DNA of 42,321 nt from a virus. Position numbers and translations under genes: made by a program. Positions 25,484 through 37,940 of the stretch are shown here, piece by piece; the stretch's first letter is position 1, and each line of letters begins with the position of its first letter. A model generated the notes under the pieces. That model worked only from the letters and a program-made list of their open reading frames with translations, did no database searches and was not told where the DNA came from. The stretch spans positions 1 through 42,321 of IMG/VR virus record IMGVR_UViG_3300047471_000188, one strand, 5' to 3'.

Positions 25484-25864
25484 TCAGAAGACGTGCATCA
25501 CCGCCGCCAAACCAACCCCAAGTGCCCCGGCGGCGACGGCAAACCCCTTGCCCCTTTCATAAGCATTATGACGGCGCCATGCCGGGTCGGCCCATCGCCT
25601 TTCATGATCGGCGAACGGGGACACCGGCGGCGTCGGAGCGTGCGCGTAGGGATCGGGCGTTGGCGGGGCCTGGGGCGGCGGTGGAGGCTCAGGCTCCTGC
25701 CTGACGGCCTCCGGTGGCGGGGTGGCCAGCATCTGCTCCCACGTCAGCCCGTGGCGCTTGCGAAACGCCTCGGCCTGAAGCCCGGCGGCGGCGCGCTCGC
25801 CGTCGAACTCGGAGCCCAGCATCCCGAGGATGGCGGCGAGGCGGCGGCGGTCGGTGGGGGTCAT
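25484..25864 (-). CDS. Small protein with proline-rich linker and C-terminal membrane anchor
   Basis: 126 residues, leftward. Residues 1-50 are a small helical unit (RRLAAILGMLGSEFDGERAA, FRKRHGLTWEQML); 55-85 are strongly Pro-rich; the C-terminus is a single hydrophobic segment (GFAVAAGALGVGLAAVMHVF). The start overlaps the upstream gene's stop as ATGA. Last of a three-gene coupled set, it faces the ejection gene with only four bases between. Function unknown; tail-anchored membrane location is likely. Confidence 0.7.
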   Translation of the reverse strand: MTPTDRRRLAAILGMLGSEFDGERAAAGLQAEAFRKRHGLTWEQMLATPPPEAVRQEPEPPPPPQAPPTPDPYAHAPTPPVSPFADHERRWADPAWRRHNAYERGKGFAVAAGALGVGLAAVMHVF

Positions 25865-26058
25865 GGCGCGTCTGCCAATTCGAGCCTCACCTTGATCCGC
25901 TCGACATCGCCGCCCATGCGGTCCAGCCGCCGCGATACCGACGCGTAGCCGGCCTCCAGCAATCCCAATCGCTCCTTGACCTCGGCCACGTCGCCGCGGA
26001 TCGCGGAGATGTCGTCGCGAATGCCGCGCAGCAAAATCAGCACCAGATCCTCGCTCAA
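25861..26058 (-). CDS. Short coiled-coil protein
   Basis: 65 residues, leftward, probably starting at TTG that overlaps the upstream stop (TTGA). Almost the whole chain is a heptad-patterned helix (VLILLRGIRDDISAIRGDV, VKERLGLLEAGYASVSRRLD). No membrane segment. It overlaps both neighbours by four bases, so the three are translated as a unit; it may oligomerise with the membrane proteins on either side. No family is recognised. Confidence 0.65.
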   Translation of the reverse strand: MSEDLVLILLRGIRDDISAIRGDVAEVKERLGLLEAGYASVSRRLDRMGGDVERIKVRLELADAP

Positions 26059-26386: not shown

Positions 26387-26640
26387 TCACTTCTCAACAA
26401 CTTCGTCGGGGAACGGGTGCAGGCCCACGTCCCTCGCCCGCTCGATCCACCAGTCGATGCCGGCCGCGTCAGGATCTCATCGACCTCCGCGAGTAGCCGC
26501 GTGACGCCCGGCGTGTGGCGGTGGTTGGCGTCCAGCCATGCGCGCAGCCACACCCGGATGATGGCGATGTCGGCGGCCGTCAGATGCTCCCCGCGCCGGT
26601 AGCGCCGGATGCTCGGCCGGGTCAGGTCGGATGCGCTCAT
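26387..26640 (-). pseudogene. Small helical protein with a single-base frameshift
   Basis: Leftward, with the start overlapping the HTH gene's stop (ATGA). The first about 60 residues read MSASDLTRPSIRRYRRGE to VTRLLAEVDEILTR; the open frame then runs on to 26347 with low-complexity Ser/Arg-rich sequence. In the neighbouring frame the DNA reads AGIDWWIERARDVGLHPF then PDEVVEK and TGA at 26387, a far more protein-like end. Restoring one G near 26465 (CGGCC to CGGGCC) joins the two. It is either a real mutation or a sequencing/assembly indel. Role unknown. Confidence 0.6.
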
Positions 26641-27113
26641 GTTTTGCCTCCGTTCGCGACCCGATTTCTTCGATCGCGCCATTCCTGAGCAATCTTCCTT
26701 TGCCTTTCGGCAAGCACGGCGCCCAGAGCGAGGCGCGCGTCGTGCGAATCGGGACCGACAGTAAGCAAGAAAGGATTCTTTTGCGAAGCTACCCGGACTC
26801 CCTGTCCGGTAGGCGGTTTTCCTGGGGTTTTCACGATCAGTGTGTAGAGATTGCTGGTCCGCTCGGTGCCCGCGCCCACGCGTTTCCGCCGCTCGCGCCA
26901 TGTCAGCAGGCCGAGTCCGGCGGCGGCGTTCAGGGCGCGCTGAACGGTCCTCACGCAACACCGCGCCTTGGCGGCGAGGCTCTCATGTGAAGGAAAAATA
27001 AGCCCGCCCCGACCGCGAAAATTCGGCAGCCGCAACAGCACGTCGCGATACAGCGGCGTGAGGTTATGCTCCCGATAATCGCACCAAACCTGGGTTTCCC
27101 ACGTATTCGCCAT
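26637..27113 (-). CDS. HTH protein, phage replication-initiator/DnaD-like N-terminal domain
   Basis: 158 residues, leftward. The ATG at 27113 is chosen because GAGGGGGA lies just upstream. Residues 5-85 match the helix-turn-helix_36 type domain of phage replication proteins: YREHNLTPLYRDVLLRLPNF, IFPSHESLAAKARCCVRTVQ and RALNAAAGLGLLTWRERRKR, that is, a winged helix read as load-check, recognition helix (CCVRTVQRALNAA) and wing. The C-terminal 70 residues are basic. It may bind an origin or act as a regulator. It lies downstream of the candidate structured RNA and heads a set of overlapping genes. Confidence 0.75.
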   Translation of the reverse strand: MANTWETQVWCDYREHNLTPLYRDVLLRLPNFRGRGGLIFPSHESLAAKARCCVRTVQRALNAAAGLGLLTWRERRKRVGAGTERTSNLYTLIVKTPGKPPTGQGVRVASQKNPFLLTVGPDSHDARLALGAVLAERQRKIAQEWRDRRNRVANGGKT

Positions 27114-27158
27114 CTGTCCCCCTCGCGGGAGGCGGGCCACCGAGGACGTGATTCACCC

Positions 27159-31290: not shown

Positions 31291-31442
31291 GACGAGCAAC
31301 GGAATTGGCGCCAACGATCCCCCGGCGCCGATCGCGCAAGGGCGGCGCGATGCCCGCCGACGTGCCGTGCGTACAATGCGATTGTGTTCATCAGACTCCC
31401 CGGCGTCAGACGCGCGACTCCCCAGGCGCCGGGGTCTTTTGA
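31287..31442 (+). CDS. Possible small Cys-rich peptide
   Basis: 51 codons from a GTG that overlaps the membrane peptide's stop, ending in TGATG with the radical-SAM start. CVQCDC is a possible metal-binding knot and the rest is basic. The end of this frame covers the hairpin with T-run described below, so the reading frame may be fortuitous. ATG at 31350 is an alternative start. Confidence 0.35.
   Translation: MRRATELAPTIPRRRSRKGGAMPADVPCVQCDCVHQTPRRQTRDSPGAGVF
31394..31440 (+). terminator. Terminator or attenuator in front of the radical-SAM gene
   Basis: CCCCGGCG (31398-31405) pairs with CGCCGGGG (31427-31434), followed at once by TCTTTT. A second GACTCCCC (31416-31423) competes for the same 3' arm, so two alternative folds are possible. 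It ends one base before the TGATG at the radical-SAM start, so termination here would switch that gene off: an attenuator-like arrangement. Confidence 0.55.
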
Positions 31443-32434
31443 TGCGTATCCGCCTCACCCAGATCGACGGCAGCCTGCCGAACCTGGCGCTGATGAAGCT
31501 GGCGCACTGGCACAAGGCGCGCGGCGACGAAGTGACGTTCACGCACCAGGCCGAGCGCGATCTGTTCGAGGGCGACTACGATCGCGTCTACGGCTCAACC
31601 ATCTTCAAATTCAGCGCGCCAAAGATCGCACGCTTCCTCGCCGCGTGGCCGGGCGCGATCCTGGGTGGAACCGGTACGACGAGCCAGCGCACGGTCGAAG
31701 ACGAGATCGGCCCATACGAGCATTACGACTATTCACTGTATCCGGCGTTCGAGCCGTCCATCGGCTTCACGCAACGCGGCTGCCGCCTGTCGTGCAAGTT
31801 CTGTGTGGTGCCCGCCAAAGAGGGCAAAGCGCGCTCGACCAACCGCATCGCGGAGATATGGCGCGGCGCCGGGCACCCGAAGAAGCTGCACCTGTTGGAC
31901 AACGATTTCTTCGGCGCCCCGGAATGGCGTGATCGCATCGCCGAAATCCGCGACGGCGATTTCAAGGTCTGTCTGAACCAGGGCATCAATGTACGCCACC
32001 TGTCGCCGGAAGCAGCCGAGGCGGTGGCGACGGTGGAATATCGCGACGACAGGTTTTCGGAGCGGAAGCTCTACACCGCATGGGACAACCTGAAGGATGA
32101 AGGGATATTCTTCCGGGGCGTGGCCATGCTGGAGGCGGCCGGCGTGCCCGCCCGGCATCTGCGCGCTTACATGCTGGTGGGCTGGGACAAGCACGAGACC
32201 TGGGAGCGCATCCATCATCGTTTCGAGCGGATGGTGGAGCGCGGGATAGAGCCATACCCCATGGTTTACGACTGCCGCGCCACCGATCCGGCACGCTACC
32301 GGGGCCTGAAGCAGTTCCAACGGTGGGCGATCACGGGACTTTACCGGGCGGTGCCGTTCTCCGCTTACGACGCCAACGCAAAACGCGACCGGTATCCCGA
32401 CACAAGGCAGATTGAACTGGCGGCCGCGTCATGA
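31442..32434 (+). CDS. Radical-SAM enzyme with N-terminal alpha/beta domain
   Basis: 330 residues from ATG 31442. Residues 1-85 resemble a B12-binding-type Rossmann segment (LALMKLAHWHKARGDEVTFT, YDRVYGSTIFKFS) but without the DxHxxG cobalamin motif. The radical-SAM cluster is CRLSCKFC with Cys114, Cys118 and Cys121 after SIGFTQRG. Later segments (KKLHLLDNDFFGAPEWRDRI, NQGINVRHLSPEAAEAV, LRAYMLVGWDKHETWERIHH) fit the TIM-barrel. The reaction is radical chemistry from S-adenosylmethionine on an unknown substrate. Direct association with the PAPS-reductase-like gene and zinc ribbons suggests a joint modification pathway. The stop overlaps the next ATG. Confidence 0.9.
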   Translation: MRIRLTQIDGSLPNLALMKLAHWHKARGDEVTFTHQAERDLFEGDYDRVYGSTIFKFSAPKIARFLAAWPGAILGGTGTTSQRTVEDEIGPYEHYDYSLYPAFEPSIGFTQRGCRLSCKFCVVPAKEGKARSTNRIAEIWRGAGHPKKLHLLDNDFFGAPEWRDRIAEIRDGDFKVCLNQGINVRHLSPEAAEAVATVEYRDDRFSERKLYTAWDNLKDEGIFFRGVAMLEAAGVPARHLRAYMLVGWDKHETWERIHHRFERMVERGIEPYPMVYDCRATDPARYRGLKQFQRWAITGLYRAVPFSAYDANAKRDRYPDTRQIELAAAS

Positions 32435-35138: not shown

Positions 35139-37142
35139 GTGACGCAAAGCGACATATCCGCGATCCGCAACGCGGCAATTCCCCTGCTTCCGCATCTGCC
35201 GGACGCGGGATGGCTCCCGCACGCGCTGGTCCGCAAACCGGACGGGAAACTCGACAAGCCGCCATGCGAGGGCGCGACATCAAACAATCCGGCGTCGTGG
35301 TTCACCATGGAACGGGCGCTCGATAAGCTGATCAACAGCCCCATGGTCGCCGGTATCGGCTTCGCCATCGTCAAGGGACTGATCGCGCTGGATTTCGATC
35401 ACTGCCGCGACCAATACACCGGCGAACTGACCGAGGAAGTCCAGGCCGTCCTGATCCAGTGTAATTCCTTCGCCTACATCACTCCGTCACGCACCGGCAT
35501 CCGTATCGTCGGAATCAACGACACGACGAACCCCATACCAGGCCAGAAAACCAACCGATGGTTGCCAGGAGGGCACAAGGTCGAGTTGTTCATAGGGCCA
35601 GTGAATTTTTACAATACATTCACCGCCGACATCATCCCAGGATATGAAACGATCCGGGACATCTCAAGCGAAACCATGGAACTGCTGGCGTTCCTGGACG
35701 CCGGTAAGAAAATCGCCGCGGCGAAGTCGCCGCCCGCCACCTCGAACCCGGACCCGCAACGCTCCATCGGCGCCATCACCGCCGCTCTCGCCATCATTCC
35801 CAACACGGCACGGGACTGGGACGAATGGTGCCGGATCGGGATGGCGGTCTGGCGCGCGTCAGGTGGACGCGGCGAGGGTCTGAACGCCTGGCACGCCTGG
35901 TCCGCGAAACACGACAGCTACGATCCGGCGAAGTGCGACGAACGCTGGCAACACTGGTTCGACAGCCCACCCACCCGCATCGGCTACGGCACGCTCTACA
36001 TGGAGGCCAGGAAAACCCGGCCGCTGTTCGTGGCGCCGTTCAATCCCGTCCCGGCGGCGAATGGGCATGACACCGATGAAATCACCGCCGCCGGGGAAAC
36101 CGGACAGCCAAAACAACCGGCTATCCTCACCATCGCCGAACTGCTCGCCCTGCCGCCACCCCAATGGCTGGTAGCGGGACTGATCCCCGAACAGTCCCTC
36201 GTCGTGCCCTACGGGCCGCCCAAGTCGGGCAAGTCGTTTCTCATGATGTCGGTCGGCCTGCACATCGCGGACGGACGCCCATGGTTCGGGCACGCCGTCC
36301 AGCAAGGCGCCGTCGTCTACGTCATGGGCGAGGGTATCGGCGGCATGTCGCTCCGCGTGCGCGCCATGCTGAAACGCTACGACATGGCGCCGGATATCCC
36401 GTTCTTCATCGTCCGACGCGCCGTCAACTTTCGCGAGCCGGCCGAGGTCAACGCCCTCGAAGCCACCATCCGGGCGCGCATCGGCGACGTGCCCCTCCGG
36501 ATGCTCGTGGTGGACACGCTGGCCCGCGCCATGCCGGGAGCGGATGAAAACAGCGCGCAGGAAACCGGCGCCGTCATCGCCGCCGCCGACTACCTGAAAG
36601 AGGAACTGCGCTGCACCGTCGCCCTCGTACACCACGAGGGCAAGGACGGGTCGCGAGGCGCCCGCGGCACCTCCGCCCTGCGGGGCGCCTGGGATGCCGC
36701 CTACCAAATCGTCTCGCACGGCAAACGCATGACAGTGACCGTGGTGGACCAGAAGGAAGCCGAGGCCGGACAGGTGCTCCGCTTCATCATGGAAGAGGTC
36801 GCGGTCGGTATCGGGCGAACGTCCCTGGTGCCGGTGCTCGATGAGACCGCGGGTGCCGGTGAACATGACGCGGGACAGGCACGCCGGGAGATCGGCGGTC
36901 ACGCCGGACTGATGCTCGCCGTGCTGCGTCAGGCCATGAAAGGACCAGACGTGGCAATGGCGGGTACCGTCAAGAGACTGACAGTCGAGGTCTGGCGTCG
37001 TGGAATATATGAAAAAATGCCTGGGGTAGAGGCTGACGCTCGCCGTCAGGCGTTCCACAGGGGGATGCAAACCCTTATGCAAAAAGGATTGATCAATGTC
37101 AAAGATCCGTGGGTTTGGTTGTGCGATGAAAACGAAGCGTGA
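35139..37142 (+). CDS. Primase-helicase: AEP-like primase, PriCT_2 region and RepA/RecA-like ATPase
   Basis: 667 residues from GTG. Residues 60-175 look like an archaeo-eukaryotic-type primase/polymerase of the plasmid-phage kind: IALDFDHC (Asp85, Asp87), TPSRTGIR (115-122) and VELFIG (148-153). Residues 205-290 (DWDEWCRIGMAVWRASGGRG, DERWQHWFDSPP) match PriCT_2. Residues 345-570 are a RecA-fold helicase: Walker A GPPKSGKS (359-366), Walker B MLVVDTLA with Asp459, then ALVHHEGKDGSRGARGTSAL. The C-terminal 90 residues are a winged helix-like end. It is the main replication protein; the heptamer array begins in its last codons, as in replicons where the initiator gene abuts its origin. Confidence 0.88.
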   Translation: MTQSDISAIRNAAIPLLPHLPDAGWLPHALVRKPDGKLDKPPCEGATSNNPASWFTMERALDKLINSPMVAGIGFAIVKGLIALDFDHCRDQYTGELTEEVQAVLIQCNSFAYITPSRTGIRIVGINDTTNPIPGQKTNRWLPGGHKVELFIGPVNFYNTFTADIIPGYETIRDISSETMELLAFLDAGKKIAAAKSPPATSNPDPQRSIGAITAALAIIPNTARDWDEWCRIGMAVWRASGGRGEGLNAWHAWSAKHDSYDPAKCDERWQHWFDSPPTRIGYGTLYMEARKTRPLFVAPFNPVPAANGHDTDEITAAGETGQPKQPAILTIAELLALPPPQWLVAGLIPEQSLVVPYGPPKSGKSFLMMSVGLHIADGRPWFGHAVQQGAVVYVMGEGIGGMSLRVRAMLKRYDMAPDIPFFIVRRAVNFREPAEVNALEATIRARIGDVPLRMLVVDTLARAMPGADENSAQETGAVIAAADYLKEELRCTVALVHHEGKDGSRGARGTSALRGAWDAAYQIVSHGKRMTVTVVDQKEAEAGQVLRFIMEEVAVGIGRTSLVPVLDETAGAGEHDAGQARREIGGHAGLMLAVLRQAMKGPDVAMAGTVKRLTVEVWRRGIYEKMPGVEADARRQAFHRGMQTLMQKGLINVKDPWVWLCDENEA

Positions 37143-37272
37143 CATGCGTGACACCGTGACATCCCGTGACATTGTCACGGGCGTAGGGTGACAAGAAGGC
37201 GTGACAAAAAAATCCCCCTTTAGGGGGATTTTGTCACGGCCTGATGTCACGCCCCCCTTCGGCCATGTCACG
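37138..37272. repeat. Ten-copy CGTGACA heptamer array, candidate replication origin
   Basis: GTGACA begins at 37139, 37148, 37156, 37166, 37188 and 37201; its reverse TGTCAC begins at 37173, 37232, 37245 and 37266. Nine of the ten extend to CGTGACA/TGTCACG. The left group points one way and the right group the other, around the hairpin at 37209-37232. Spacings of 8-10 bases at the left end are near one helical turn. Location directly behind the primase-helicase gene supports iteron-like binding sites for an initiator, or an operator cluster. Confidence 0.72.
37209..37232. terminator. Perfect bidirectional terminator hairpin
   Basis: AAAATCCCCC (37209-37218), loop TTTA, GGGGGATTTT (37223-37232). 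The A-run before and T-run after make it a good factor-independent terminator in both directions. It ends the primase-helicase transcript and sits in the middle of the heptamer array; as DNA it may also extrude as a cruciform at the proposed origin. Confidence 0.8.
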
Positions 37273-37292: not shown

Positions 37293-37940
37293 ATGTCATC
37301 CAGACGGTTTGAAGACGACACCCGGTTCCGCCTTGCCCTGGTTCCTGTTGATCAGGCTTTTTTTGACAGTGAGCAAAAGTGGGGCGTGGGGAGGTTGGAG
37401 AGACTAATTTCCCAACCAACCCTCGCCTCCTACCGCCGAGGCTGGGATCTCTACCGCGCTGCTTTGGAATCATCGGACGCGGCGGCGGTCGAGGCGGTCG
37501 GCCCCAAGATGGTGGCGGCGCTCGCCGTGATGGACCGCGAGGCATCGGTGGCGGGCCACAAGCCGCTCGCTCCGGACACCTGGGAGCACGCCCTGGGCAA
37601 CGGCGTCACGCTGGTGGTGGTCAGGACCGGGGCGGAGGCGTCGGCCGTCCTGCGTGCCTCCAGGGCCTCCGGCGAGGCGGTGTCATACGAGACGACGCTG
37701 CCGCCCGACCTCGCCGTCACCGTCCGCGACCAGCACGAGGGCCGCGCGCTGGTCGTCGTGACGATGGCGGAAATCGCCCGCCTGCTGCGGGCGCAGGAGA
37801 CCGGCCTGTGGGGCACCGTCTGGGAAGGCACGCCGGCGGAAAGCGGACGCGTGATGGAAGAAGGCGCGGCGGCGGATCTGGCGCGGAGCGGGTATCCTCT
37901 CCCGGCGCCGCTCGCCGCCGATGTCGTGCTGGCGTTTTGA
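37293..37940 (+). CDS. Hypothetical early protein
   Basis: 215 residues. N-terminus basic then helical (FRLALVPVDQAFFDSEQKWG), middle region mixed alpha/beta with a hydrophobic strand (WEHALGNGVTLVVVRTGAEA, GRALVVVTMAEIARLLRAQE), acidic end. No domain is recognised. It follows the heptamer array and its hairpin, so it must use its own promoter within the array region or read-through. Its stop overlaps a possible TTG start of the next gene. Confidence 0.7.
   Translation: MSSRRFEDDTRFRLALVPVDQAFFDSEQKWGVGRLERLISQPTLASYRRGWDLYRAALESSDAAAVEAVGPKMVAALAVMDREASVAGHKPLAPDTWEHALGNGVTLVVVRTGAEASAVLRASRASGEAVSYETTLPPDLAVTVRDQHEGRALVVVTMAEIARLLRAQETGLWGTVWEGTPAESGRVMEEGAAADLARSGYPLPAPLAADVVLAF

Follow-up and report, generated by a model that had tools for sequence, protein, structure and literature searches.

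A heptamer array at the 3' end of a phage primase-helicase gene: a probable iteron origin region read by the C-terminal domain of the upstream enzyme

Introduction

Which protein reads a dense array of short repeats that begins at the very end of a phage primase-helicase gene, and does replication start there? The locus lies in IMG/VR virus record IMGVR_UViG_3300047471_000188, which was analyzed over its whole length of 42,321 nt and is called the window below. Its phage genes include those for a terminase large subunit and a head-closure protein (PHROGs); a radical SAM domain protein (31367–32434; PHROG 9298) is also encoded. The first-pass annotation had taken the array for an initiator-binding site and a likely origin. 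Iteron origins beside self-loading helicases are already known. In the open-access papers searched we found no phage initiator of RepA type that combines a CRP-like reader with hypervariable heptamers and a residue-base code that can be tracked, and nothing relevant on CGTGACA or on the origin of phage 16-3.

Structure of the array

Ten heptamers were located within 135 nt (37138–37272), six of them direct and four inverted; nine are exact CGTGACA and one is GGTGACA. Four direct copies on the plus strand (37138–37144, 37147–37153, 37155–37161 and 37165–37171) are followed by an inverted copy on the minus strand (37173–37179, reading TGTCACG on the plus strand), the degenerate GGTGACA (37187–37193, plus) and another exact direct copy to the left of the palindrome (37200–37206, plus). 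Three more inverted copies, again TGTCACG on the plus strand, are located at 37232–37238, on the right of the palindrome, and at 37245–37251 and 37266–37272. The number and orientation of the copies agree with the first description of the locus, as does the start of the array in the last codons of the primase-helicase, where heptamer 1 overlaps the TGA stop (37140–37142).

Between the fifth exact direct heptamer and the first downstream inverted one there is a palindrome, AAAATCCCCCTTTAGGGGGATTTT (37209–37232, unstranded), flanked by inverted heptamers and composed of AAAATCCCCCT-TT-AGGGGGATTTT, that is, perfect 11-nt arms with a TT loop. The hairpin is thus as perfect as had been stated, and its position "in the middle" is approximate, with seven copies before it and three after.

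In 2000 shuffles of the 360-nt region the best 7-mer usually reached 2–3 copies and at most 6, so the array is not due to chance, in line with the earlier claim. Elsewhere in the 42-kb window exact CGTGACA occurs only five times, all scattered. Given this copy count and the shuffles, a chance or low-complexity origin of the array was rejected. Apart from the array, the contig has one dense 7-mer region, a CGCCGCC-rich low-complexity stretch at 25501–25980.

A change of GC skew had been suggested as a check on origin function, but the skew is uninformative: the window has a shallow local minimum near 36.5 kb, and the meta-profile of 128 loci shows no clear switch at the array (0.059 to 0.048). 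Since the meta-profile gives no support, the minimum in the window was not used as origin evidence.

The primase-helicase and its C-terminal domain

The gene that ends in the array (35139–37142, plus strand; assigned by Pfam, PHROGs, and AF2 with Foldseek) encodes a protein of 667 aa in which the Pfam scan detected PriCT_2 and AAA_25 only. The best fold match of the helicase core (AF2 model and Foldseek) is RSF1010 RepA (1nlf/1olo/1g8y), with an E-value of 2.5e-11 for 1nlf and a TM-score of 0.72–0.76 by target length; the RecA-fold core resembles RepA, as in RSF1010 RepA-type hexameric helicases. AF2 confidence is low for residues 1–327, the primase part.

In the full-length AlphaFold model residues 587–661 (codons 36897–37121, plus strand) form a winged helix with a recognition helix at 632–648 (37032–37082, plus strand), where pLDDT is mostly 80–89; the domain modeled alone again gives a winged helix, with a mean pLDDT of 82. 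The recognition helix contains R636, Q637, H640 and R641, and the codon for Q637 is CAG (37047–37049, plus strand). Among the best Foldseek matches of the domain, tied with other winged helices, are the DNA-binding domains of CRP/CAP, and its VIA-align comparison with 1i6x (CRP/CAP) has a Z of 8.9. A sequence profile search did not find CRP and returned only weak matches to ribosomal protein L23, which were taken as chance, so that sequence homology to CRP was rejected; no cyclic-nucleotide domain was present in the Pfam scan. The similarity of the predicted domain to CRP is therefore one of fold only.

Distribution of the array among related helicases

Three other contigs carry a gene for the same helicase, with 68–70% amino acid identity. 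All of them carry a heptamer array after the stop codon, around nearly the same palindrome (CCCCCTTTAGGGGG), and all their repeats are CGTATCA, not CGTGACA: the layout is kept and the heptamer word is altered in every copy.

A search of viral contigs for the pattern of dense CGTGACA arrays yielded at least 120 stretches. Among the array stretches listed, about 40 ORFs matched the window helicase, nearly all of them directly upstream of the array; one such match, with the array downstream, is p101 of Rhizobium phage 16-3. Later loci were gathered by protein match alone, which avoids motif bias. In 49 of the first 80 protein-selected loci the densest 7-mer array was found at the 3' end of the helicase gene (expected 4%). 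With further loci from viral contigs and bacterial genomes, the whole collection comprised 225 non-redundant helicase gene ends. At least seven copies of one hexamer were present at 141 of these ends, compared with 13 of 590 ends of other genes in these loci; among 225 shuffled sequences there were none. For the protein-selected loci the corresponding figure was 111 of 192, with 62 different hexamers. A clear array is missing in about one-fifth of the family loci (43 of 225 have fewer than five copies). The 3'-end array characterizes this phage and prophage helicase family in general. Circular plasmid records of 17–38 kb with the helicase gene and the array also exist; as these records are phage-like, they lend little weight to autonomous replication.

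Covariation of the recognition helix with the heptamer

We analyzed covariation in 68 dereplicated proteins and 323 alignment columns, with relatives collapsed at 45% identity. Residue 637 ranked first of the 323 columns by mutual information with heptamer positions 3–5 (z 4.0, p 0.0002), followed by 636, 633, 632 and 634 of the same helix; the ranking by partial correlation was headed by residues 641 and 637. In this set (i) Q637 is associated with TGACA (20/24 vs. 7/44); (ii) K637 in the absence of E640 with GGACA (20/23 vs. 0/45, p 2e-14); and (iii) R641 with the terminal CA (54/58 vs. 2/10). Plasmid pMRAD08 has K at 637 and the array word CCGGACA. In CGTNAC arrays residue 637 corresponded to base N as Q-G in 28 of 29 cases, T-C in 12 of 12, M-A in 7 of 8 and V-T in 3 of 3, counts that pool training and test loci, include close relatives and were compiled after the loci had been seen.

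Rules set beforehand were applied to 80 new loci and gave 16 correct predictions out of 27, while 2000 permutations gave a mean of 5.0 and a maximum of 11. The M rule failed in five related loci, where M-GCACA/TCACA was predicted and CGTAAC was found, and the T rule was wrong where residue 636 is not basic. In this helix context M is paired with A and not with C, the base anticipated from other contexts. The residue-base code is therefore contextual.

On a tree built without the winged-helix domain, residue 637 underwent at least 37 changes and the motif 34. For Q-CGTGAC, about 11 of 13 independent pairs on this tree were concordant and none discordant (p ~0.001); p was 0.016 for both T-CGTCAC and K-GGAC, and the M and V pairs were too few. 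Loci L015, L057 and L114, with RRQVW-type helices, and L182 count against the association on the tree.

In pairs such as L376 and L378 the helicase genes are about 95% identical in DNA sequence, with a fall to 83–87% in the winged-helix codons; the members of such near-identical pairs differ in the recognition helix and, in register, at base 4 of most heptamers. This fits an exchange or re-coding of a cassette of domain and array between near-identical helicases. Both in L376 vs. L378 and in L382 vs. L413 the sequence downstream of the array becomes abruptly unrelated, as if the array were a recombination boundary.

The palindrome and possible termination of transcription

A palindromic core, CC(TTTA/TAAA/TTAA/TATA)GG, was found in 61 of 161 array loci and in 6 of 777 random segments, and in 58 of 60 loci the iterons nearest to it on its two sides are mutually inverted. 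By analogy with the RSF1010 hairpins, the palindrome may be an opening or priming site.

It could be supposed instead that binding of the primase-helicase to the array serves chiefly to regulate its own gene or to end transcription, with a repressor site combined with a bidirectional terminator, and that the true origin is elsewhere. The window palindrome indeed looks like an intrinsic terminator on both strands, with a GC stem and T runs, and the array is situated between two co-directional genes. However, the T run is absent from the palindromes of most relatives, so termination is not the function that they have in common; the array is downstream of the helicase gene and not at its promoter; and SaPI Rep and Cch2, which have the same arrangement, bind origins (PMC7581432). 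We therefore regard this explanation as unlikely, although the palindrome of the window itself could also act as a terminator.

Other candidate readers and functions

The reader might also be another protein: the product of the gene directly after the array (37293–37940, plus strand), which belongs to a family that we call 'KWG..RL', the replication-initiation O-like HTH protein (26637–27140, minus strand; PHROG 391), or a host factor. Wherever the KWG gene is present (36 loci), it begins directly behind the array, and CGTGACA arrays also adjoin unrelated helicases. But only 36 of 155 array loci have a KWG gene, which is thus associated with the array and not required, and as a universal reader its product was rejected. 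The O-like protein, which the first-pass annotation had named as a possible binder, could not be found in six array-bearing records of relatives, some of them fragments, and was likewise dismissed. A host factor would leave unexplained the residue-base covariation within near-identical helicases. Altogether, a reader other than the primase-helicase seems quite improbable.

The window phage has the O-like protein alongside a self-contained primase-helicase. The 'KWG..RL' family has no match in Pfam, PHROGs or NCBIfam; its other members include L057:5277–5747, L145:4758–5297 and L161:3761–4360, and many have an acidic, SSB-like tip at their end (D-D/E-IPF; DDEIPF/NDEIPF), which suggests an SSB-like or SSB-partner-recruiting role.

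Plasmid iteron arrays commonly act in incompatibility, and the lineage-specific motifs agree with replicon immunity. The array could accordingly be, instead of an origin, a determinant of copy number or incompatibility or a site for partition or packaging. Yet incompatibility is compatible with origin function and hence no alternative to it, ParB-like genes are not regularly adjacent to the arrays, terminase genes are near few of them only, and the constant neighbor is the helicase. To this explanation we give the least credence.

Comparison with known initiators

In SaPI Rep with its ori, and in SCCmec Cch2 with its putative ori, the C-terminal domain binds iterons that closely follow the protein's own gene (PMC7581432). 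The likeness to the window system comprises a self-loading initiator helicase, a C-terminal reader and short iterons 3' of its own gene (PMC7581432), with inverted repeats nearby; in the window, too, the repeats are directly downstream and a C-terminal reading domain is predicted. The motors are different, DUF927 or D5/Primase_Cterm in SaPI Rep/Cch2 and RSF1010-RepA-like (AAA_25) in the window helicase, where Pfam found neither DUF927 nor D5/Primase_Cterm. Unlike SaPI Rep/Cch2, the window protein has a predicted CRP-like winged helix as its reader, and its family has hypervariable heptamers for which the residue-base relation can be traced. By analogy, the window protein would work like SaPI Rep and Cch2 without being a member of their group.

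The helicase fold, as judged by the best PDB match, is shared with the RSF1010 system of RepA, RepB' and RepC. In RSF1010, RepC binds the iterons and priming occurs at hairpins. That system consists of three proteins on a plasmid, whereas the window protein fuses a helicase, a primase-like module and an iteron-reading domain, and its repeats, unlike those of RSF1010, are 7-mers.

Phage P4 has short iterons in ori/crr. Its alpha protein uses a Toprim-type primase and a different type of helicase. Like the window protein as proposed here, it unites a primase, a helicase and origin binding by a winged helix in a single chain (PMC4234260). ORF904 of pRN1 and phage BIP-1 offer another primase-helicase with a C-terminal winged helix; an essential element including a stem-loop is located downstream of the gene, but the helicase is of SF3 type and the 100-nt stem-loop has no iterons (PMC4234260). 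A phage-satellite pair of initiator and iterons is known from PLE RepA and ICP1 Odn, with a RepA_N initiator that lacks a helicase and semi-palindromic iterons of ~30 bp; Odn attacks satellite origins via their iterons, and altered iterons evade its cleavage (PMC8263062). Escape from such an origin-directed nuclease is a possible reason for iteron diversification here as well.

When CRP binds TGTGA, Arg180 contacts G2, and Arg185 and Glu181 contact base pair 4 (PMC11253593). The predicted winged-helix fold and the helix motif R-x-x-x-x-R are common to CRP/CAP and the window protein, although CRP is a dimeric transcription factor without detectable sequence homology to the latter. Judged from alignment ranges and from an ungapped alignment made by eye, Q637 corresponds to Glu181. 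In the reversed heptamer TGTCACG (TGTNACG) the variable base is at position 4, as at base pair 4 of TGTGA. This agreement is suggestive. The arginine contacts need not equal those of CRP, because R641 is associated with positions 1–2 and not with position 4.

Discussion

We conclude, with a probability of roughly 0.8, that the array serves the phage as its iteron origin region and that its reader is the primase-helicase whose gene directly precedes it. Several short repeats are clustered beside an initiator gene, as in iteron-type origins. From the sequence comparisons we strongly infer that the C-terminal domain of the helicase binds the heptamers directly. The initiator-binding part of the first-pass proposal is thus upheld by the conserved 3'-end place, the lineage-specific heptamers and the covariation with the recognition helix, and the origin part follows by analogy: like the arrays of SaPI, Cch2 and P4, this one would fire as an origin. 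Origin firing, hexamer loading, the role of the palindrome and incompatibility are all assumed from such comparisons.

The following mechanism is proposed. The C-terminal winged helix would bind the heptamers through helix 632–648 (R636, Q637, R641), occupying the direct copies on the gene side and the inverted copies beyond the palindrome. Binding would collect hexameric motors of RepA type to the left and right of the palindrome. The palindrome could then open or be extruded and become a template for the primase module. With the motors gathered at the palindrome, the primase-helicase would therefore load itself without a separate initiator, and, by analogy with SaPI Rep, Cch2, pRN1 and P4, the bound protein would assemble as helicase rings and start replication at the array.

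The address of such an origin would be switchable, with residue 637 setting base 4 of CGTNACA (Q-G, T-C, M-A, V-T). Because the codons of the domain adjoin the array, we propose that the two could be replaced together. It is rather probable, though less so than the origin reading itself, that this four-letter code and the repeated swapping of the domain-array cassette have produced mutually private replicons within a large initiator family. Co-infecting phages, satellites and origin-directed nucleases are perhaps the drivers, and by comparison with ICP1 Odn, turnover of the motif under pressure from rivals is possible.

For hundreds of uncultivated phages and prophages these results provide origin candidates with a named putative reader and a specificity residue. 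They also offer a natural data set for a protein-DNA code, in which near-identical proteins differ at a key residue and their arrays at one base, and they make testable the question of whether phages diversify their origins to become invisible to rivals.

It should be added that CGTGACA arrays were also observed at or near the 3' ends of unrelated replication genes, namely VapE/Prim-Pol, DUF5906/D5_N and Zn_Ribbon_Prim (loci L106, L112, L076, L055, L101 and L012), the C-termini of which are dissimilar to the winged helix. A C-terminal domain common to the VapE/D5-type neighbors was considered and rejected, as the inspected tails are not similar. In six other loci (L018, L029, L042, L075, L086 and L102) GTGACA-type arrays are located between the gene for a small DnaA-domain-IV-like protein (HSTV..GIKM) and a BT4734-like primase gene.
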